Part shown: positions 7,986 through 35,713 of the stretch, in pieces
How the letters are laid out: the number at the start of each line of letters is the position of its first letter
Numbering within the stretch: the first letter of the stretch is position 1
Assembly: GCA_017997455.1 (NCBI GenBank)
Contig: JAGOEZ010000004.1
Location: 1 to 44,329 of the forward strand
DNA length: 44,329 nt
Direction: 5' to 3'
From: Lysobacterales bacterium
GTDB taxonomy: Bacteria; Pseudomonadota; Gammaproteobacteria; Xanthomonadales; Ahniellaceae
Notes under the pieces: generated by a model
What the model was told of the DNA's origin: nothing
What the model saw: only the letters and a program-made list of their open reading frames with translations
The model's database searches: none
Translations under genes and position numbers: made by a program

Positions 7986-8354
7986 TCACAGCACTTCGGG
8001 GGCGAGCGACACGATCTTCATGAAGCGCTCGGTGCGCAGTTCGCGCGTCACCGGCCCGAAGATGCGGGTGCCGATCGGCTCCAGCTTGTTGTTCAGCAGC
8101 ACGGCGGCGTTGCCGTCGAAACGGATCAGCGAACCATCCGGGCGACGCACGCCCTTGCGGGTGCGCACGACCACCGCGTCGTAGACCTCGCCCTTCTTGA
8201 CCTTGCCGCGCGGGATGGCGTCCTTGACCGACACCTTGATGATGTCGCCGATGTGGGCATAGCGGCGCTTGGAACCGCCAAGCACCTTGATGCACATCAG
8301 CTCGCGCGCACCGCTGTTGTCGGCGGCGGCCAGGTGGCTCTGCATCTGGATCAT
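7986..8354 (-). CDS. rplN: 50S ribosomal protein L14
   Basis: 122 aa; starts [20 protein letters not shown] and includes [21 protein letters not shown] and the C-terminal [14 protein letters not shown]14 contributes to intersubunit bridges and is the contact point for the silencing factor RsfS. It is the first gene of the spc set, 30 bp downstream of rpsQ with no separate promoter that I can recognise. Confidence 0.99.
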
Positions 8355-8384
8355 TTCATTGCACTCCGGGTCGGGTCGTGCGCG

Positions 8385-8648
8385 TCACTGCTGTGCGCGC
8401 GTGACGACCTCGACCACCTTCCAGTTCTTGGTCTTGGAAACGGGACGCGTCTCGACGATCCGCACCAGGTCGCCCTCGCGGCACTCGCCGTTGGCGTCAT
8501 GGGCGTGAACCTTGGTCGAGCGGCGCAGGAACTTGCCGTAGGTCTCGTGCTCGACCTGGCGCTCGATCAGGACGGTGACCGTCTTCTGCATCTTGTTGCT
8601 GACCACGCGACCTTCGATCGCGCGGGACTGCTTGCTGTTCTCGGTCAT
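8385..8648 (-). CDS. rpsQ: 30S ribosomal protein S17
   Basis: 87 aa from the ATG at 8648 ([20 protein letters not shown]). An upstream GTG at 8663 would add five residues not typical of the family. The OB-fold signature [19 protein letters not shown] and the C-terminal [20 protein letters not shown] are complete. S17 is a primary 16S rRNA binder. It is the last gene of the S10 set, 11 bp after rpmC. Confidence 0.98.
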
Positions 8649-8659
8649 GGCATCCGGCC

Positions 8660-8845
8660 TCACTTGCCCTTGCCCAGCGCGGTCTTGGCGCGGGCGATAT
8701 CGCGGCGGACGCGCTTGAGCTGGTGCGTCTGTGTCAGCTGCCCGGTGCCCTTCTGCATGCGCAGGCCGAACTGCTCCTTGCGCAGCTCGACGATGTGCTC
8801 GGAAATCTCGGCCGGGGTCTTCTTCTTCAGTTCCGTGGCGTTCAT
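8660..8845 (-). CDS. rpmC: 50S ribosomal protein L29
   Basis: 61 aa: [20 protein letters not shown] through the hallmark [17 protein letters not shown]29 sits at the exit tunnel near the trigger-factor and SRP docking site. Its ATG at 8845 shares one base with the rplP stop (TGATG on the minus strand), so it is translationally coupled to rplP. A longer ORF in the same frame reaching 9103 runs over rplP and is not real. Confidence 0.97.
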
Positions 8846-9258
8846 CACATCACCGTCCGGGTAACGAACGAGGTCTGCACCGACAGTTTCGCCGCGGCCA
8901 GGCGGAACGCCTCGCGCGCGGTCTTCTCGTCGATACCTTCCATCTCGTACAGCATGCGTCCGGGCTGGACCACGGCGACGTGGAATTCCACGCTGCCCTT
9001 GCCGTTGCCCATGCGGACCTCGATCGGCTTCTTGGTGATCGGCTTGTCCGGGAACACGCGGATCCAGAGCTTGCCGCCGCGCTTGACATAGCGCGTGATG
9101 CAACGGCGCGCGGCCTCGATCTGGCGCGCGGTCAGGTGTCCGTGGGTTGTGGCCTTGAGGCCGTACTCACCGAAGCTGACCTGGTTGCCGACGTAGCTGA
9201 GGCCCCGGTTGCGGCCCTTGTGCTGCTTGCGGAACTTCTGGCGTGCTGGTTGCAGCAT
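8845..9258 (-). CDS. rplP: 50S ribosomal protein L16
   Basis: 137 aa (E. coli 136). Starts [20 protein letters not shown]; internal signatures are [20 protein letters not shown] and [21 protein letters not shown]16 organises the A-site and peptidyl-transferase region. It follows rpsC by 11 bp and shares its last base with rpmC. Confidence 0.99.
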
Positions 9259-9269
9259 GGCTCAAATCC

Positions 9270-9962
9270 TCACTTCGCCGCCGGGCGATCGCGCTTGCCG
9301 GCCTCGGCAGGTTGCTCCGCCTGCGCGGCGTGCAGGTCGAACACGTCACCCTTGTAGATCCAGACCTTGCAGCCGATGATCCCGTAGGTGGTCTTGGCCT
9401 CGGCAAAGCCGTAGTCGACATCCGCGCGCAGCGTGTGCAGGGGCACGCGGCCCTCGCGATACCACTCCGAGCGCGCGATCTCGGCGCCGTTGAGGCGGCC
9501 ACCCACGTTGACCTTGATGCCCAGCGCGCCCAGGCGCATCGCGTTACCGACCGCGCGCTTCATCGCGCGGCGGAACATGATGCGGCGCTCGAGCTGCTGG
9601 CAGATCGATTCCGCGACCAGCTGCGCGTCCATCTCGGGCTTGCGCACCTCGGTGACGTTGATGTGGGCGGGGACGCCCATCATCTTCGACACGTCGCGGC
9701 GCAGCTTCTCGATGTCCTCGCCCTTCTTGCCGATCACGACGCCCGGACGGGCGGTGTGGATCGTTACCCGCGCGGTCTTGGCCGGGCGCTCGATGCTGAT
9801 GCGGGAGATGCCGGCCTGGGCCAGCTTCTCGCGCAGCATCTCGCGCACCTTGAGGTCGGCGGCAAGGTACTGGGCGTAGTCACGCTTGTTGGCGTACCAC
9901 TTCGAGTTCCAGTCCTTGGAGATTCCAAGGCGGATACCGGTGGGGTGAACTTTGTGACCCAT
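9270..9962 (-). CDS. rpsC: 30S ribosomal protein S3
   Basis: 230 aa. Starts [20 protein letters not shown] and contains the KH-type RNA-binding loop [17 protein letters not shown], then the C-terminal domain with [12 protein letters not shown]. The end is an acidic/basic tail ([16 protein letters not shown]). S3 lines the mRNA entry channel. It sits between rplV (12 bp) and rplP (11 bp), the canonical S10-operon order. Confidence 0.99.
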
Positions 9963-9974
9963 CGTCGAAAGTCC

Positions 9975-10316
9975 TTATTGCTGCTTGCCGGTACCGACAA
10001 CCACGGTGATGTGGCTGGTCCGCTTGAGGATGCGCGTGCCGCGGCCCTTGGCGCGTGCCGCGAAGCGCTTGAGCGAAGGACCTTCGTCGACCATGATCGT
10101 GGCGACCTTGAGGTCGTCCACGTCGGCGCCGAGGTTGTTCTCCGCATTGGCGACCGCCGACAACAGCACCTTCTTGACCATCTGGGCGGCCTTCTTGTTG
10201 CTGAACGCGAGCAGGTCGCGCGCGCGGCCGACCGGCAGGCCGCGGACCTGGTCGGCGACCAGGCGGGCCTTCTGCGGCGAGATCCGCGCGGTACGGAGGA
10301 TGGCTTTGGCTTCCAT
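9975..10316 (-). CDS. rplV: 50S ribosomal protein L22
   Basis: 113 aa from the ATG at 10316 ([20 protein letters not shown]); a start at 10331 would add five atypical residues. The long beta-hairpin that lines the exit tunnel is present ([20 protein letters not shown]), and no deletion of the macrolide-resistance type is apparent. It lies 11 bp after rpsS. Confidence 0.98.
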
Positions 10317-10327
10317 CGTCGTGCTCC

Positions 10328-10615
10328 TCACTTCTTCGCCGGCTCGGACGACTTCTTGTCGCCCGAGTGCACCTTGAAGGTGCGGGTGAGCGCGAACTCG
10401 CCGAGCTTGTGGCCGACCATGTTCTCGTTCACCAGCACGGGCACGTGCTGGCGCCCGTTGTGCACGGCGATGGTCATTCCGACCATCTCCGGCAGGATCA
10501 TCGAGCGGCGCGACCAGGTCTTGATCGGGCGCTTGTTGCTGGTCTTGCCAGCAGCCTCGACCTTCTTCATCAGGTGCAGGTCCACGAAGGGACCCTTCTT
10601 AAGGGAGCGTGCCAT
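10328..10615 (-). CDS. rpsS: 30S ribosomal protein S19
   Basis: 95 aa. Starts [20 protein letters not shown] and has [20 protein letters not shown] and [19 protein letters not shown], the family signature. S19 forms a head complex with S13 and contacts the large subunit. It is 12 bp after rplB. Confidence 0.99.
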
Positions 10616-10627
10616 GAGGGTCGCCTA

Positions 10628-11455
10628 TCAGCTTCTGCGGTCGCGCACGATGAACTTCTGCGTGCGCTTGTTCTTGCGGGTCTTGTAACCCTTGGTCGGC
10701 ATGCCCCAGGGCGAAACCGGATGCGGGTTGCCCTGGCCGGCGCGGGCTTCGCCGCCGCCGTGCGGATGGTCGACCGGGTTCATCGCGGCGCCGCGCACGG
10801 TGGGCTTGATGCCCTTCCAGCGCTTGGCACCGGCCTTGCCGATCTTGCGCAGGTTGTGCTCGTCGTTGCCGACTTCGCCGATGGTGGCGCGGCAGTCGGC
10901 GGGCACCTTGCGCATCTCGCCGGAACGCAGGCGCAGCGTGGCGTAACCCTGCTCGCGCGCGATCAACTGGGCCGAGGCGCCGGCGCTGCGCGCGATCTGC
11001 GCGCCCTTGCCGGGACGCATCTCGATGCAGTGCACGGTCGAGCCGATCGGCACGTTGCGCAGCGGCATCGAGTTGCCGTTCTTGATCGGCGCGTCACGGC
11101 CGGCGATCAACTGGTCGCCCACCGCCACGCCCTTGGGCGCGATGATGTAGCGGCGCTCGCCATCGACATAGCACAGCAGCGCGATGTGCGCGGTGCGGTT
11201 GGGGTCGTACTCGACCCGCTCCACGCGCGCCGGAATGCCTTCCTTGTCGCGCTTGAAGTCGATGAGACGGTAGTGCTGCTTGTGGCCACCGCCGATATGA
11301 CGGGTGGTGATGCGCCCGTGGTGGTTGCGGCCGCCCGTCTTGTGCTGGGCCTCGGTCAACGCCGCGTGCGGCGCACCCTTGTGCAGCCCCGACGTGGCCA
11401 CGCGCACCATCTGGCGGCGGCCCGGCGAAGTCGGCTTGAATGTGATCAGTGCCAT
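10628..11455 (-). CDS. rplB: 50S ribosomal protein L2
   Basis: 275 aa (E. coli 273). Near the C-terminus it has [18 protein letters not shown], containing the conserved histidine needed near the peptidyl-transferase centre. The N-terminal OB-fold and SH3-like domains are intact ([20 protein letters not shown]). L2 is required for subunit association. It is 11 bp downstream of rplW. Confidence 0.99.
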
Positions 11456-11466
11456 GGGTTCCTGCC

Positions 11467-11763
11467 TCAGGCCTTCGCCATCAGGTCGATCGACTGGCCT
11501 TCGCCCAGTCGAACATAGGCCTTGCGCCAGCTGCCGCGAGTGCCCGGGCGGCCCTTGAAACCCTTGGCCTTGCCCTTGACGTTCACGACGGTGACGCGAT
11601 CGACCTTCACGCTGAACATCTGCTCGACGGCCGCCTTGACCTCGGCCTTGGTCGCGTCCTGCGCAACCTCGAACACGTACTGGTTGGCCAGCTCCTGCGT
11701 GCGCGCCGCCTTCTCGGAGACGTGCGGTGCCTTCAGGACGGTGGTGAGACGCTCGCTGCTCAT
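11467..11763 (-). CDS. rplW: 50S ribosomal protein L23
   Basis: 98 aa from the ATG at 11763 ([20 protein letters not shown]). This start overlaps the rplD stop as ATGA (4 bp), which decides it over an in-frame start at 11772. Signature [20 protein letters not shown]23 is the tunnel-exit docking site for trigger factor and SRP. Confidence 0.98.
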
Positions 11764-12368
11764 GCCAGCCACTCCTCGAACTTCTTGACGGAGTCCACGG
11801 TCATCAGCACCGCATCCGCCCCGACAAGGGCAGCCGGGCTGATGCCGCTGACGTCCACCACCTCGACGATGCGCTTGTTGTTGCGCGACGCGAGGTAAAG
11901 ATTCTCGCTGACGTTCTCGGTCACGATGACCGTGCGACCCTCGACCTGGAGCCCCGCCAGCTTCGCGATCAGGCCCTGGGTCTTCGGCGCGTCGACGTCG
12001 AGCGACTCGACCACCTTGAGGCGGTCCTGGCGCAGCAGCTCCGACAGGATCGAGGCCACGGCGCCGCGGTACATCTTCTTGTTCACCTTCTGGGTGAAAT
12101 CGCGCGGACGCGCCGCGAACGTCACGCCGCCGCCGACGAAGATCGGCGCGCGATAGTCGCCGTGGCGGGCGCCGCCACCCTTCTGCTTCTTGAACTTCTT
12201 GGTCGTGCCGGACATGTCCGAGCGCGACTTCTGCTTCTTGGTGCCCGCGCGGCCGCCGGCGCGATAAGCATTGACGACCTGGTGCACGAGATCCTCGCGG
12301 AAGTCGGCGCCGAACACGGCGTCCGACACGGCGAGCGACTTCTTGGAGCCGACGAGGCTAAGTTCCAT
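11760..12368 (-). CDS. rplD: 50S ribosomal protein L4
   Basis: 202 aa (E. coli 201) from the ATG at 12368 ([20 protein letters not shown]). The tunnel-reaching loop [20 protein letters not shown] is present. In enterics L4 also represses the S10 operon through a leader before rpsJ; the 67-bp tuf-rpsJ gap here is too short for that leader. It overlaps rplW by 4 bp. Confidence 0.98.
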
Positions 12369-12379
12369 GGCTCCTCTCC

Positions 12380-13018
12380 TCAACCCTTGCTGGCCGGGCG
12401 GATCACGACGTCGCCGCCGGCGGCGCCGGGCACCGAGCCCCGCACCGCGATCAGGTGGCGCTCGGCGTCGATCTGCACGACTTCGAGATTCTGCATCGAC
12501 TGGTTCACGTCGCCCATGTGACCGGACATCTTCTTGCCCGGGAACACGCGGCCCGGGGTCTGGCGCTGGCCGATCGAGCCCGGCGAGCGATGCGACAGCG
12601 AGTTGCCGTGCGTCGCGTCGCCCATGGTGAAGTGATGGCGCTTGATCGTGCCCGCGAACCCCTTGCCCTTGGTGACGCCCGCGACGTCGACCATCTGGCC
12701 GACCTTGAAGGTGTCAACGGTCAGCTCGGCGCCGACCTGGAATCCGCCGACCTCCTTGGCGCCCACGCGGAACTCCCACAGGCCCCGGCCGCCTTCCACC
12801 TTCGCCTTCGCGTAGTGGCCGGCCAGCGGCTTGGTGATCAGCGCCGCGCGCTTGCTTCCCGCAGTGACCTGGATGGCGTCATAGCCATCGGTCTCGCTGG
12901 TCTTGACCTGGGTGACACGGTTCGGCGTCGCTTCGATGAGCGTCACCGGCACCGACGTGCCATCCGCGGTGAAGACCCGCGTCATGCCGCACTTGCGGCC
13001 CACCAATCCAATGCTCAT
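12380..13018 (-). CDS. rplC: 50S ribosomal protein L3
   Basis: 212 aa from the ATG at 13018 ([20 protein letters not shown]). An ATG two codons upstream (13024) lies too close to its AGGG Shine-Dalgarno, whereas 13018 is spaced about 7 nt. The loop reaching the peptidyl-transferase centre is intact, with GQRQTPG carrying the glutamine that PrmB methylates in E. coli. L3 initiates 50S assembly. It follows rpsJ by 25 bp. Confidence 0.97.
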
Positions 13019-13043
13019 GGTCATGCCCTGCAGATGCGTGCGA

Positions 13044-13355
13044 TCAATACAACTTGATCTGGACGTCGACACCGGCCGCGAGGTCGAGCTTCATCAGCGC
13101 GTCCACGGTCTTGTCGTTCGGATCGATGATATCGAGCACGCGTTTGTGCGTGCGGGTTTCGTACTGGTCGCGCGCGTCCTTGTCGACGTGCGGCGAGACC
13201 AGCACCGTGTAGCGCTCGATCTTGGTCGGCAGCGGGATCGGGCCGCGCACCTGCGCGCCCGTGCGCTTCGCCGTTTCCACGATCTCGCTGGCCGAACGAT
13301 CGATCAGGCGATGATCGTAGGCCTTGAGCCGGATTCGAATCTTCTGGTCTGCCAT
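13044..13355 (-). CDS. rpsJ: 30S ribosomal protein S10 (NusE)
   Basis: 103 aa, identical length to E. coli, from the ATG at 13355 ([20 protein letters not shown]). The rest includes [21 protein letters not shown]10 is a 30S head protein and, as NusE, pairs with NusB in antitermination and with NusG (encoded at 28981) in transcription-translation coupling. It follows tuf copy 1 by 67 bp, with no S10-leader-like structure visible. Confidence 0.98.
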
Positions 13356-13417
13356 GGTCTGGTTCCTTGGTCCGGGTTGCGGGGCGCGCACACCCTGCAA
13401 CGCTCGTGGGGTTTTGC

Positions 13418-14617
<1,200 letters not shown>

Positions 14618-14647
14618 AATCCCTCGAATCCATTATTGAACGATCGA

Positions 14648-16741
<2,094 letters not shown>

Positions 16742-16761
16742 GGTCGTTCCCTGATCCACTC

Positions 16762-17229
16762 TTACCAGCGGTAGTGAGCGAAGGCCTTGTTGGCCTCCGC
16801 CATGCGGTGCGTCTCTTCGCGCTTCTTGACCGCGGCGCCACGGTTTTCCGAGGCCTCCAGCAGTTCGGCGGCGAGCTTGCGCGGCATCGAGTTCTCGCCG
16901 CGCTTGCGCGCGGCCTCGATCAGCCAGCGCATGGCCAGCGCGCTGCGGCGCGACGAACGCACCTCGACCGGCACCTGGTAGGTCGCGCCGCCGACACGGC
17001 GGGACTTGACCTCGACGGCCGGGGCGACGTTGTTGAGCGCCTTCTCGACCACGTCGACCGGTGCGGCATGCTTCTCGCCGATGTGGCCAAGGGCGCCGTA
17101 AACGATGCGCTCGGCGACCGACTTCTTGCCGCTCTTCATCACCATGTTGATGAAACGCGCGACCATCGCACTGTTGTGCTTGGGGTCGGCGAGGCCGACG
17201 CGGATTGGGGTGGAACCTTTGCGAGACAT
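16762..17229 (-). CDS. rpsG: 30S ribosomal protein S7
   Basis: 155 aa. Starts [20 protein letters not shown]; contains [20 protein letters not shown] and ends NKAFAHYRW, the short form of the C-terminus. S7 organises the 30S head and, in E. coli, represses the str operon at the rpsL-rpsG junction. The 38-bp junction here is much shorter than that of E. coli, so the same binding site is doubtful (inference). Confidence 0.99.
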
Positions 17230-17267
17230 GTCTTACGCCCTGGGTCTGGCGAACTGGGTACGAAGGC

Positions 17268-17645
17268 TCAGGAAGCCTTCGGGCGCTTGGCGCCGTACTT
17301 CGAGCGACTCTGGCGACGCTTGGTCACGCCGGCCGCGTCGAGCGAGCCGCGCACGGTGTGGTAGCGCACGCCCGGCAGGTCCTTGACGCGGCCACCGCGG
17401 ATCAGGACCACGGAGTGTTCCTGGAGGTTGTGGCCTTCGCCGCCGATGTAGCTGATCACCTCGAAGCCGTTGACCAACCGCACCTTCGCAACCTTGCGCA
17501 GGGCCGAGTTGGGCTTCTTCGGGGTGGTGGTGTAGACGCGCGTGCAGACGCCGCGACGCTGCGGCGAATTCTGCAGCGCAGGCGAAGCGCTCTTGTAGCT
17601 CTTCGGGCTGCGCGGCTTGCGGACCAGCTGATTGATCGTCGCCAT
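17268..17645 (-). CDS. rpsL: 30S ribosomal protein S12
   Basis: 125 aa (E. coli 124). Decoding-centre loops are intact: [16 protein letters not shown] keeps the lysine of the common streptomycin-resistance site (K42/K43), and [17 protein letters not shown] keeps the K87/K88 region with the aspartate that RimO methylthiolates in E. coli. Wild-type residues there predict a streptomycin-sensitive ribosome. It is the first gene of the str group, with AGGA as Shine-Dalgarno and a strong hairpin ending only about 22 nt upstream. Confidence 0.99.
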
Positions 17646-17667
17646 TTGGTAGTCCTGAGAAACAAAA

Positions 17668-17695
17668 GACAGGCCGGCGTAAACGCCGGCCTGTC
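17668..17695 (-). terminator. Perfect 12-bp hairpin with T-run before rpsL (terminator or 5' mRNA cap)
   Basis: GACAGGCCGGCG (17668-17679) and CGCCGGCCTGTC (17684-17695) form an uninterrupted 12-bp GC-rich stem with a 4-nt loop. On the minus strand it is followed by TTTTGTTT, the shape of an intrinsic terminator acting on rpoC read-through. The predicted rpsL promoter fires almost exactly at the hairpin start, so the rpsL mRNA would begin with this structure. It may therefore insulate rpoC from rpsL, protect the 5' end, or attenuate. The fold is certain from sequence; the role is inferred. Confidence 0.7.
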
Positions 17696-17704
17696 AGCTT
17701 TGAG

Positions 17705-17734
17705 ACTTTAACAGGTCGCTCAAAACTCTGTCAA
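17705..17734 (-). promoter_or_regulatory. Sigma-70 promoter for rpsL-rpsG-fusA-tuf and downstream ribosomal genes
   Basis: On the minus strand a perfect -35 TTGACA (17729-17734) is followed after 18 bp by TAAAGT (17705-17710; 4/6 match to the -10). A start site about 7 nt on, near 17698, would put the first transcribed bases at the edge of the 12-bp hairpin. It is the best consensus-like promoter upstream of the long ribosomal-protein run. Confidence 0.65.
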
Positions 17735-17756
17735 TGAAATGCCCCGTTCCCGGAGC

Positions 17757-17801
17757 TCGAACACGAGGTCCTCCATGGACCTCTTTTCGATGTGTTTTCG
17801 A
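17757..17801 (-). other. Branched inverted repeat after rpoC
   Basis: Within the 169-bp rpoC-rpsL gap, GAGGTCC (17765-17771) pairs with GGACCTC (17777-17783). An outer stem CTCGAA-CAC (17757-17765) pairs with GTG..TTCGAG (to 17801) with a small bulge. No T-run follows on the minus strand, so an RNA-processing or 3'-end-protecting stem is more likely than an intrinsic terminator. Confidence 0.45.
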
Positions 17802-17814
17802 GGGCTATTGCCCG

Positions 17815-22026
<4,212 letters not shown>

Positions 22027-22051
22027 GGTCTTTTCTCCGGGTCCGTGGCGA

Positions 22052-26128
<4,077 letters not shown>

Positions 26129-26175
26129 CGTCATCACACCTTGGGCCGGGCAGGCCGCACGTCAGGCAAATCGCC

Positions 26176-26230
26176 AATCGCAAGCCAGGTTCCCGCGTGG
26201 CGGCGCGGGCTGGTACACGGGCTTGCGATT
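26176..26230 (-). promoter_or_regulatory. Long stem-loop in the rplL-rpoB spacer (candidate RNase III processing site)
   Basis: AATCGCAAGCC (26176-26186) and GGCTTGCGATT (26220-26230) are perfect 11-bp complements. The 33-nt interior holds a second stem, CCCGCG...CGCGGG, flanked by CCAG/CTGG, giving an extended near-continuous duplex. In E. coli an RNase III site lies in the same spacer and separates the ribosomal-protein and polymerase parts of the mRNA. The structure is read from sequence; the RNase III role is by analogy. Confidence 0.55.
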
Positions 26231-26298
26231 CGCGACTCGTGGTACCTCGGTTTCCCGGCCCGCTGTTGCGTGCCGGGGCATTGGTTCAAACAACGAAA

Positions 26299-26322
26299 GG
26301 CCGGGGGCTTTCGCCCCCAGCC
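26299..26322 (-). terminator. Attenuator-like hairpin after rplL
   Basis: GGCCGGGGGC (26299-26308) pairs with GCCCCCAGCC (26313-26322): 10 positions with one mismatch, capped on the transcribed strand by GAAA, a GNRA tetraloop, and followed by TTTCGTTGTTT. The T-tract is interrupted, so partial termination is expected. E. coli has a partial terminator at this spot that lowers rpoBC expression relative to rplJL. Confidence 0.6.
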
Positions 26323-26363
26323 TCGCGTACGCCCGATCTTGGAATCGAGCGCAAGGACGGCGC

Positions 26364-26741
26364 TTACTTGACCTCGACGGTCGCGCCGGCCGCTTCCAGC
26401 TCCTTCTTGAACTTCGCCGAATCGTCCTTGCTCGCGGCTTCCTTCACCGTGGCAGGGGCCGACTCGACCAGGTCCTTGGCCTCCTTGAGGCCCAGACCCG
26501 TGATCGCGCGTACCGCCTTGATCACTTCGACCTTCTTCTCGCCGGCGGCCTTGAGGACCACCGTGAACTCGGTCTTCTCCTCGGCGGCCGGCGCGGCTGC
26601 GCCAACCGGGGCGGCCGCAACGGCCACCGGGGCCGCCGCGGAGACGCCGAACTTCTCTTCCATCATCTTGACCAGGTCGGTGATGTCGATGAGCGACATC
26701 TTCGCGATTGCGTCAAGGATCTCTTCCTTCGAAACGGCCAT
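26364..26741 (-). CDS. rplL: 50S ribosomal protein L7/L12
   Basis: 125 aa from the ATG at 26741 ([20 protein letters not shown]). GAGGT is spaced 7 nt from this ATG but only 2 nt from the alternative at 26747. The N-terminal dimerisation helices, an Ala/Pro-rich hinge and the C-terminal domain ([20 protein letters not shown]) are all present. L7/L12 is the multi-copy stalk protein that recruits translation GTPases. It is 59 bp after rplJ. Confidence 0.98.
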
Positions 26742-26800
26742 TGTCATTACCTCTTCAGAGTCGTGGATATGCCGAAGCCAAACCGGCGATCGAACGGGAC

Positions 26801-27331
26801 TCAGCCCTGTGCCTGTTTCTGGTCGCGCACCGCGGCCACCGCTCGGGCGACCATGGAAGCCGGCTCGATCAGCGTGCGGACGAACTTCTCGATCGGTGCC
26901 TTCATCACACCGAGGAGCATCGACAGCGCCTGCTCGCGAGTCGGCAGCGCGGCCAGACGGTCGACGTGGGAAGCCGGATACATCTGGCCCCCGATCGCGA
27001 CCAACTTGGCCTTGAGCTTGTCATTCGCCTTGGCAAAATCCTTGATCAGACGACCGGCAGCACCGGGGTCTTCCTGCGAGAACGCGTAGAGCATCGGGCC
27101 CGAGAGCGAATCCTTCACGCACTCGAACTCGGTGCCCGCCACCGCGCGGCTCACCAGGGTGTTCTTGGCCACCCGGAGGTAGACCTTGCCCTGGCGGGCC
27201 TTCACTCGCAGGTCGGTCAGCTGGCTGACCGACAACCCGGCGTACTCGGCAGCGACCAGGGAATGCGCCTTGGCGGCCACATTCGCCAGTTCGGCAACGA
27301 CCTCTTTCTTTTGGTCCAGATTGAGTGCCAT
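26801..27331 (-). CDS. rplJ: 50S ribosomal protein L10
   Basis: 176 aa. Starts [20 protein letters not shown]; carries [20 protein letters not shown] and the C-terminal helix that binds L7/L12 dimers. In other bacteria the L10-L7/L12 complex represses its own mRNA at a leader site, and a 441-bp structured spacer precedes this gene. GGAGG is placed 6 nt before the ATG. Confidence 0.98.
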
Positions 27332-27604
27332 TGCGTGCCTCCGAACTCAGCTGTCCATTCGCGGCGATCCCGCCGCTAGTGGTACGAATCTGTCGGGCCC
27401 TGCCTCCTGGCGGGGACCGCCGGCCCGTGCTGGCACCGGTGGTGTTGGCCGTTTCAATGAACTTGAAAGGGCAGCACCATCTACGCAGGCCCACATCCTG
27501 TGCATTAAGGCCCTGGCGCTACCGCGTCGACGTCGTCCCTTGCCATGACGCATCCATGCCCGTCTTGCGGTTCGCGCCGCAGCCACCTGCGGTCTTTGAC
27601 TGCG

Positions 27605-27628
27605 CCCCGCGGCCTTGCGACCGCGGGG
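27605..27628 (-). other. 10-bp hairpin with GCAA tetraloop in the rplJ leader
   Basis: On the transcribed strand CCCCGCGGTC pairs with GGCCGCGGGG (one G-U pair) around GCAA, a GNRA tetraloop. It sits directly upstream of the L10-leader-like AAAGACCGCAGG segment. No T-run follows, so a structural or protein-binding role fits better than termination. Confidence 0.55.
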
Positions 27629-27680
27629 GCCCTCAAAATTTGTATTGCTCCGCGCGCAATGGCGCGGCAAATCGAAATGG

Positions 27681-27717
27681 GCCCCGGATCAACGCACATC
27701 CCTGTGCTGTCCGGGGC
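27681..27717 (-). terminator. Hairpin after rplA (possible weak terminator)
   Basis: GCCCCGGA (27681-27688) pairs with TCCGGGGC (27710-27717), and an inner stem GCACA/TGTGC (27694-27707) extends the fold. On the minus strand CCATTTCGATTTG follows, only mildly T-rich. It could partly separate rplKA from rplJL; the evidence is fold only. Confidence 0.4.
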
Positions 27718-27772
27718 TCGGCCATCCTGGCCTCGGACGCGCTCCGAAACAGGTTCAGAGCACGCTTCGCAA

Positions 27773-28474
27773 TCACTTCAACGCCAATGAAGCCTGGTCG
27801 ACGGTCACGCCGACCCCCATCGTGCTGGACAGCGAGATCTTCTGCAGGAACTGGCCCTTCGCCGTCGACGGCTTGGCGCGGACCAGATCGTGCAGCAGCG
27901 CGTCGAGGTTCTGCTTGAGCGCGTCGATCTCGAAGCTGGCCTTGCCGATCGAGCAGTGCACGATGCCGGCCTTGTCGTTGCGGTAGCGGACCTGGCCCGC
28001 CTTCGCGTTGCGGATCGCGCCGACCACGTCGGGCGTCACGGTGCCGACCTTGGGGTTCGGCATCAGGCCGCGCGGGCCCAGCAACTGGCCCAGCTTGCCG
28101 ACCACGCGCATCGCGTCCGGTGACGCGATGACCACGTCGTAGTTGAGGTCGCCGCCCTGCATTTTCTCGGCCAGTTCCTCCATGCCGACGATGTCGGCGC
28201 CGGCGGCCTTGGCCGCCTCCGCCTTCTCGCCGGCCGGGCAGAACACGGCCACCCGCACCGACTTGCCGGTGCCGGCCGGGAGCACGGTCGAGCCGCGCAC
28301 CACCTGGTCGGACTTCTTGGCATCGATGCCGAGGCGCACGGCCACGTCGACCGACTCCACGAACTTCGCCTTGGCGTTGTCCTTGACCAGCTTGAGGGCC
28401 TCGTCGATGGCGTACTGCTTGCCTTCGGTGACGGCCTTGGTCGCCGCCGCGTAACGCTTTCCGAGCTTTGCCAT
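27773..28474 (-). CDS. rplA: 50S ribosomal protein L1
   Basis: 233 aa. Starts [20 protein letters not shown]; the signature region [19 protein letters not shown] is at about residues 130-148. L1 forms the mobile stalk that helps deacylated tRNA leave the E site, and it represses rplK-rplA translation in E. coli. Its ATG lies 2 bp after the rplK stop, so the two are coupled. Confidence 0.99.
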
Positions 28475-29993: not shown

Positions 29994-30069
<76 letters not shown>

Positions 30070-31426: not shown

Positions 31427-31502
<76 letters not shown>

Positions 31503-31535: not shown

Positions 31536-31609
31536 TGGAGCGGGAGACGGGAATCGAACCCGCACCATCAGCTTGGAAGGCTGAGGTTCTACCGTTGAAC
31601 TACTCCCGC
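31536..31609 (-). tRNA. glyT: tRNA-Gly (TCC anticodon)
   Basis: 74 nt with encoded CCA. Acceptor GCGGGAG pairs with CTCCCGC; the anticodon loop CTTCCAA gives TCC; the T-arm carries GGTTCGATTCC. It lies 33 bp upstream of tRNA-Thr, the same order as glyT-thrT-tufB in E. coli. Confidence 0.97.
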
Positions 31610-35636: not shown

Positions 35637-35713
35637 TGGCTGGGGCGGCAGGATTCGAACCTGCGAATGCGGGAATCAAAATCCCGTGCCTTAACCAGCT
35701 TGGCGACGCCCCA
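35637..35713 (-). tRNA. tRNA-Gln (TTG anticodon)
   Basis: 77 nt with encoded CCA. Acceptor TGGGGCG pairs with CGCCCCA; the anticodon stem CGGGA/TCCCG encloses TTTTGAT, giving TTG; the T-arm carries GGTTCGAATCC. It is embedded between ispE (17 bp) and prs (57 bp), so it is probably cut from an ispE-prs transcript. Confidence 0.97.

Follow-up and report, generated by a model that had tools for sequence, protein, structure and literature searches.

The first transcribed bases of the str operon, which sets the supply of core translation factors, are predicted to form a hairpin of the terminator type in the DNA analysed here, a stretch of 44,329 nucleotides from a Lysobacterales bacterium (contig JAGOEZ010000004.1 of assembly GCA_017997455.1; hereafter, the window). 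The hairpin is real and conserved beyond chance, is anchored to the promoter of rpsL and is not merely the terminator of rpoC, a role that it has partly at most. We propose that it is a leader-less, promoter-proximal intrinsic attenuator that would also stop rpoC read-through, a reading to which we give about an even chance and for which the transcription start, the occurrence and extent of termination and any regulation are predictions. Some str transcripts are probably stopped almost at initiation, to judge from the position of the element, and such a conserved stop at the first transcribed bases would constitute a growth-control point that is inexplicable by a leader-based model.

Architecture of the rpoC–rpsL spacer

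The genes of interest lie on the minus strand in the order rpoB, rpoC (17815–22026; TIGR02386), rpsL (17268–17645; ribosomal protein S12, the first gene of the str group; TIGR00981, E = 5.4e-67), rpsG, fusA and tuf, with 169 nt separating the rpoC stop from the rpsL ATG. In the direction of transcription, this spacer carries a −35 hexamer TTGACA (17729–17734), an 18-nt spacer, a −10 hexamer TAAAGT preceded by TG as in an extended −10 (17705–17710), the nine bases CTCAAAGCT, the perfect hairpin GACAGGCCGGCG-TTTA-CGCCGGCCTGTC with its TTTA loop (17668–17695), the U-tract TTTTGTTT (17660–17667) and a Shine–Dalgarno-like AGGA that stands 7 nt before the ATG at 17645 and outside the hairpin (17653–17656). 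A sequence-only reading of the window had described a perfect 12-bp hairpin with a T-run at 17695–17668, a TTGACA-N18-TAAAGT promoter ahead of it and a gap of about 22 nt to the rpsL ATG, and all three descriptions hold: the coordinates are correct, the promoter matches the consensus at 10/12 positions and the gap read from the sequence is 22 nt.

The hairpin begins 9 nt past the −10 and its 28-mer folds with −25.8 kcal/mol (z = −7.9), a stability that none of 200 shuffles equals. With a GC-rich stem (12 bp, 10 GC) and a U-rich tract (7 T of 8), it has the composition of an intrinsic terminator, and it lies between a promoter, as assigned by consensus, and the first gene, as an attenuator does. 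Neither component is numerically unusual in the region 8001–27900: the promoter scores highest of 3 matches, a number not above chance (shuffle mean 1.8), and among 13 terminator-like sites, a number not above the 13.8 of the shuffles, the hairpin (12 pairs) ties with one other for greatest length. Their combination is found at one of the five promoter-like sites on both strands of the window, that of rpsL, when a hairpin 1–16 nt downstream is asked for, and at none of 59 such sites in 320 kb of a genome of the same family.

From the position of the −10, we predict a transcription start within 17696–17701, most likely at G17698, 7 nt past the −10, which would leave 3 unpaired nucleotides ahead of the stem and place a predicted termination zone in the U-tract, about 38 nt from the start. 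A start anywhere in 17701–17695 keeps the 12-bp stem intact, and starts further in would trim it stepwise.

A repeat element or a generic terminator of the genome was considered and rejected. The pattern ACAGGCC...GGCCTGT has no second copy in the source genome assembly, which is rated 86% complete, and model R1, with 150 first-look candidates scored per genome, matched exactly once in each of 21 of the 31 genomes, in every case just upstream of rpsL. No R1 match was obtained in the other 10 of the 31, five of which also lacked an S12 match; the remaining five (G015, G018, G025, G026 and G027) had rpsL.

Conservation upstream of rpsL

Four sets of loci were compared: an order set of 53 loci including the window (an S12 match in 53 of 61 genomes searched); a class set with one relative per family (an S12 match in 122 of 143, of which two belonged to the order set, leaving 120 loci, with 119 tested after L159 was dropped as too short); a named set consisting of the best 80 of at least 591 places; and one E. 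coli locus. Within the 250 nt before the rpsL start codon, the region to which the test was confined, we required three things at once: a promoter-like site scoring 9/12 or better, a stem of 7 bp or more that starts 1–16 nt past the −10, and 4 or more T in the 8 nt after it. This combination is present in 40/53 order loci against 1/1060 dinucleotide shuffles and in 55/119 class loci against 4/2380, so that the geometry pointed out by the sequence-only reading, a terminator shape just after the promoter with a predicted start near 17698, proves to be conserved. It is also present at 30 of the named loci (the best 80 of at least 591 places) against 1/1600 dinucleotide shuffles, and at the E. coli locus against 0/20.

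Promoter-like sites of at least 9/12 occur upstream of rpsL in 45/53 order loci. Among loci with a promoter, the bin from +1 to +16 holds 40/45 in the order set, 55/111 in the class set and 30/54 in the named set (the best 80 of at least 591 places), and none of the other 16-nt bins holds more than 7. The combination was not found in 13/53 order loci (8 without a promoter-like site and 5 with a promoter and no hairpin) and in 64/119 class loci (8 and 56, respectively), which indicates that the element is dispensable in many lineages or is missed by our rules. Distant and beta-type lineages are part of the named set, itself the best 80 of at least 591 places, and a few of its calls depend on weak promoters or unlike hairpins.

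The hairpin follows the promoter, and the U-tract follows the hairpin

The distance from the −10 to the stem varies little (s.d. of 2.2 in the order set and 2.4 in the class set, the test itself limiting it to 1–16) and clusters at 8–11 in 33/40 order loci and at 10–14 in 49/55 class loci, whereas the distance from the stem to the ATG has an s.d. of 18.7 and 34.5, respectively. In the 32 order and class loci in which hairpin and ATG are at least 45 nt apart, the 8 nt after the hairpin contain on average 5.75 T (the test asks for 4 of 8), compared with 2.19 at the position suited to the ribosome site and 2.22 at other positions; the T-tract also recurs on the same side of the hairpin in relatives. 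The hairpin is therefore tied to the promoter rather than to the ATG, and the U-tract to the hairpin. The resulting arrangement of promoter, hairpin and U-tract is the look expected of a terminator placed at a transcription start.

The main rival of an attenuator is a 5′ stabilising cap, in which the hairpin would shield the 5′ end of the str mRNA from pyrophosphate removal and RNase E and the U-tract would be incidental or an aid to translation. The predicted geometry suits it, as the start at 17698 and the 8–11-nt spacing of most order loci would leave between 2 and 5 unpaired nucleotides, and the hairpin leaves AGGA free. Stem-loops at the 5′ terminus stabilise E. coli mRNA (Emory 1992, as cited in the text available to us of PMC7509114). 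A cap would, however, have no need of the U-tract, the T-richness of which goes with the hairpin and not with the ribosome site, and many class loci have a −10-to-stem distance of 12–15, and some order loci one of 13–16, implying a longer unpaired 5′ end; in family f8, for example, distances of 14–16 would leave 8–10 nt ahead of the stem. The ompA-type stabilisers carry a stem a few nucleotides from the 5′ end, a position that would fit the predicted start at 17698, with −10-to-stem distances of up to 16 at some loci. To our knowledge, a U-tract bound to the hairpin is not part of that kind of element. We give the cap a small though real chance; a U-tract bound to the hairpin makes a cap by itself less likely, and cap and attenuator could both hold.

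Three further ideas about the tract were set aside. A translation enhancer near the ribosome site is disfavoured by the distribution of T residues given above. Translation-coupled attenuation is excluded by the order of elements if the start is right, the U-tract preceding AGGA. A U-tract weakened to tune read-through was rejected, as the longest T-runs are likewise limited to 2–4 at nine strong terminator-like sites of G002 (within 320 kb), which makes interrupted tracts the local norm.

The hairpin persists without an adjacent rpoC

Among the options offered by the sequence-only reading was an rpoC terminator that shares bases with the next promoter. This stands in part: the hairpin can catch read-through, but it persists with rpoC detached or separately terminated and is therefore not merely an rpoC terminator. 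rpoC was searched for in each of nine hairpin-positive genomes that have no rpoC within reach. The hairpin is kept in G019, whose rpoC shares the contig at a distance of 76 kb, and in G028, G054, G056 and G171, with rpoC on another contig and room around it (the G056 hairpin is less alike and lies 101 nt from the ATG). G166 and G106 also have a detached rpoC, but with weak promoter or hairpin calls; G175 was left out of the detached count (rpsL near a contig end) and G088 gave no rpoC match. In E. coli, tusB lies upstream of rpsL, and a hairpin of different sequence begins 2 nt past the −10. The hairpin is thus kept in these five genomes and in E. coli with no rpoC directly upstream, contrary to what a function restricted to ending rpoC would require. 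At other loci (for example, L041, L042, L140, L200 and L249), the space between rpoC and the promoter holds a clear terminator of its own, and the hairpin is kept all the same.

Where rpoC is adjacent and the hairpin present, no further terminator-like site occurs up to the −35 in 27/35 order loci, in 38/45 class loci (not counting four whose spacers are very short) and in 18/19 named loci (from the best 80 of at least 591 places). The hairpin is therefore usually the sole terminator-like site between rpoC and the rpsL start and can catch read-through. The same counts speak for a one-way insulator, in which the hairpin would end read-through from rpoC or other genes while polymerases just started at rpsL would pass, early complexes ignoring the hairpin. 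Also in its favour, two of the four detached rpoC genes examined (G019 and G028) have a downstream terminator-like site of their own; that of G054 is poor and G056 has none. Yet an insulator would be expected before the promoter, and the hairpin is kept at loci with rpoC detached or already terminated, although other upstream genes could still need insulation there. Nor is loss of the hairpin significantly linked to gain of an upstream terminator, which is present at 7/45 class loci with the hairpin and 7/30 without it (P = 0.55) and, in the named set (the best 80 of at least 591 places), at 1/19 and 3/11, respectively (P = 0.13). We know of no reason for early complexes to be immune to a terminator, and consider an insulator quite unlikely.

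Compensation between the hairpin at +1 and a separate rpoC terminator was rejected as not significant; the order set holds one countable hairpin-negative locus, and the window's own upstream ‘terminator’ in this count is a poor stem in which we do not believe.

Covariation of the stem and its conserved letters

When the 40 order calls, which give 37 distinct rows, are aligned with MAFFT, pairing extends to 95.1% of cells, which 0/500 shuffles reach, and 7/10 pairs are altered on both sides, which 2/500 shuffles reach; sliding the partner by one column lowers pairing to 43–44%. A covariance model built from these calls found 44/53 order loci in the expected place with E < 0.002, five of which had not been used in the build; L018, a row that had been used, is not one of the 44. 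Applied to 100 of the 120 class loci, the model gave the alignment A3, which includes reverse-strand and partial rows. Its 40 forward full-length rows, which are fitted to the model and so lean towards it, have 382/392 cells paired and 8/10 pairs altered on both sides, neither value being reached in 500 shuffles; four of these rows (L178, L189, L203 and L208) lie some 190–320 nt before the ATG. Stem covariation in relatives, which had been suggested as a check on the hairpin, is thus found at both levels.

The CAG/CTG pairs near the base of the stem are almost invariant in letter (40/40, 39/40 and 40/40 of the class rows, which the model favours), and a model-free search finds [AG]CAG[AG]C in the 5′ arm of 34/55 class calls and 31/40 order calls. 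Together, the covariation and the conserved letters indicate that the pairing of the stem is under selection, and that its letters probably are as well. Letter conservation counts against a plain terminator, which needs pairing and not particular letters, and favours a recognition site, in which the stem would be bound by a specific protein, whether in the RNA, by an autogenous repressor, or in the DNA, as a palindrome that overlaps the start, with the terminator look secondary. A DNA palindrome, however, would have no need of a U-tract on one strand, and CAGG is absent from the E. coli version; we find recognition as the main function very doubtful.

Relation to known rpsL leaders

Attenuators in rpsL leaders have been predicted in Listeria, Xanthomonas, Pseudomonas and Rickettsia, and rpsL antiterminators were proposed with no globally conserved feature found (Naville & Gautheret 2010, PMC2965389, in the sections available). 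Candidates in that work were filtered by orientation and distance to genes, and those sections mention no rpsL start site. The window element shares with the Xanthomonas-type rpsL leader, as described there, the gene and a terminator-shaped hairpin just upstream. It differs in that the hairpin lies at the predicted +1, so that RNA initiated at the promoter would lack any upstream part, and in that a shared core, with a CAG/CTG stem base and a TTTGTTT-like tail, recurs here in many families. An rpsL attenuator as such had therefore already been predicted, on the available text of PMC2965389, and what our analysis adds is the predicted +1 placement, the independence from rpoC and the shared core. 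The rimP leader in the same source likewise has conserved stem letters and no visible antiterminator, from which its authors inferred a termination or antitermination protein, but it concerns another gene and another stem motif (GGGc...gCCC).

The Rfam family RF01773 (rpsL_pseudo) occupies the same place, and its third helix and UUUUG tail correspond to the hairpin and U-tract. Against the window, it scores 15.6 bits, below its gathering cut-off of 70, and it exceeds gathering in seven of the eight named Pseudomonas loci (L081, L088, L095, L096, L098, L107 and L110; not in L068). In these Pseudomonas matches, helix 1 runs into the −35 and helix 2 spans from −35 to −10 (alignments of L107 and L110), the −10 of L107 lying in and beside the loop of helix 2. 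Helices 1 and 2 thus cannot form whole on RNA from the rpsL promoter, although they could on rpoC read-through RNA, and RF01773 seems partly to model promoter DNA. The overlap of two of its helices with −35 and −10 suggests that RF01773 and the proposed rpsL antiterminators merit re-examination. Other Rfam matches at the site (PtaRNA1 at 23.8 bits, STnc430 and others) were discarded, all falling below their own gathering scores.

As to transcript ends, a premature 3′ end has been reported for rpsL of EPEC in stationary phase, which the accessible text does not place relative to the hairpin described here (PMC10687069), and 5′ untranslated regions of ribosomal-protein operons are described as containing defined 3′ ends (PMC7815308, in part); rpsL is not mentioned in PMC8297930 or PMC7815308. 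The literature searched, to which most subscription papers were external, yielded no usable mapped rpsL start and, on the rpsL leader or RF01773, PMC2965389 alone.

A model for attenuation at the transcription start

Of the three options offered by the sequence-only reading, attenuated initiation fits best, that of an rpoC terminator being incomplete and the 5′ stability cap being the main rival. In the model that we propose, RNA polymerase starting near 17698 would make the hairpin as about the first 30 nt of its transcript and then the U-tract, at about +32 to +39. A fraction of polymerases would be released at about +38, ahead of synthesis of the Shine–Dalgarno sequence, and the remainder would continue into rpsL-rpsG-fusA-tuf; where rpoC lies upstream, its read-through would be caught by the same signal. 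Because the DNA upstream of the hairpin is the promoter, with about 3 nt transcribed ahead of the stem if the start is 17698, there would be no antiterminator, riboswitch or leader peptide there. The fraction reading through would have to be fixed, or be set by elongation factors, polymerase speed or the choice of a start site within the stem, or alternatively by a factor recognising the conserved CAG/CTG at the stem base. Very high expression is expected of these genes, and a stop signal ahead of them would seem to carry a cost that only high read-through could offset. A clear prediction of the attenuator model is that rpsL promoters give rise to RNAs about 38 nt long that carry a primary 5′ end.

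A far broader claim would be that the gammaproteobacterial operon for S12, S7, EF-G and EF-Tu is throttled in this way across much of the class, the outcome being settled over the first ~38 nt, ahead of any involvement of a ribosome or leader RNA, by the elongation rate, the choice of start site or a factor that recognises CAG/CTG, and that published leader models have taken promoter DNA for RNA structure; we regard this as unlikely.

Other features nearby

A second conserved hairpin, CGAA...GAGGTCC-ATGGA-GGACCTC...TTCG, lies on the minus strand at 17758–17789, between the rpoC stop and the −35, and would fall in the rpoC 3′ untranslated region. A pattern search of 176 loci finds it in 16, all from the order set and the window among them; the CGAA/TTCG base is invariant, 97.0% of upper-stem cells are paired with 4 pairs altered on both sides, and GGA is present in the loop region in 16/16 loci. 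We take it, as a candidate only, to resemble a CsrA/RsmA-type site.

A terminator-like hairpin of 12 pairs (GAGGCTGGGGGCGAAAGCCCCCGGCCTT TCGTTGTTTG; 26297–26324, minus strand) precedes the rpoB reading frame by about 160 nt and is, we presume, probably the rplL–rpoB attenuator known from E. coli. Four minus-strand tRNA genes score above the Rfam threshold (29997–30069, 31430–31502, 31539–31609 and 35640–35713), two of them 36 nt apart, and a 10/12 promoter-like site (36036–36008) lies about 295 nt upstream of the tRNA gene at 35640–35713.
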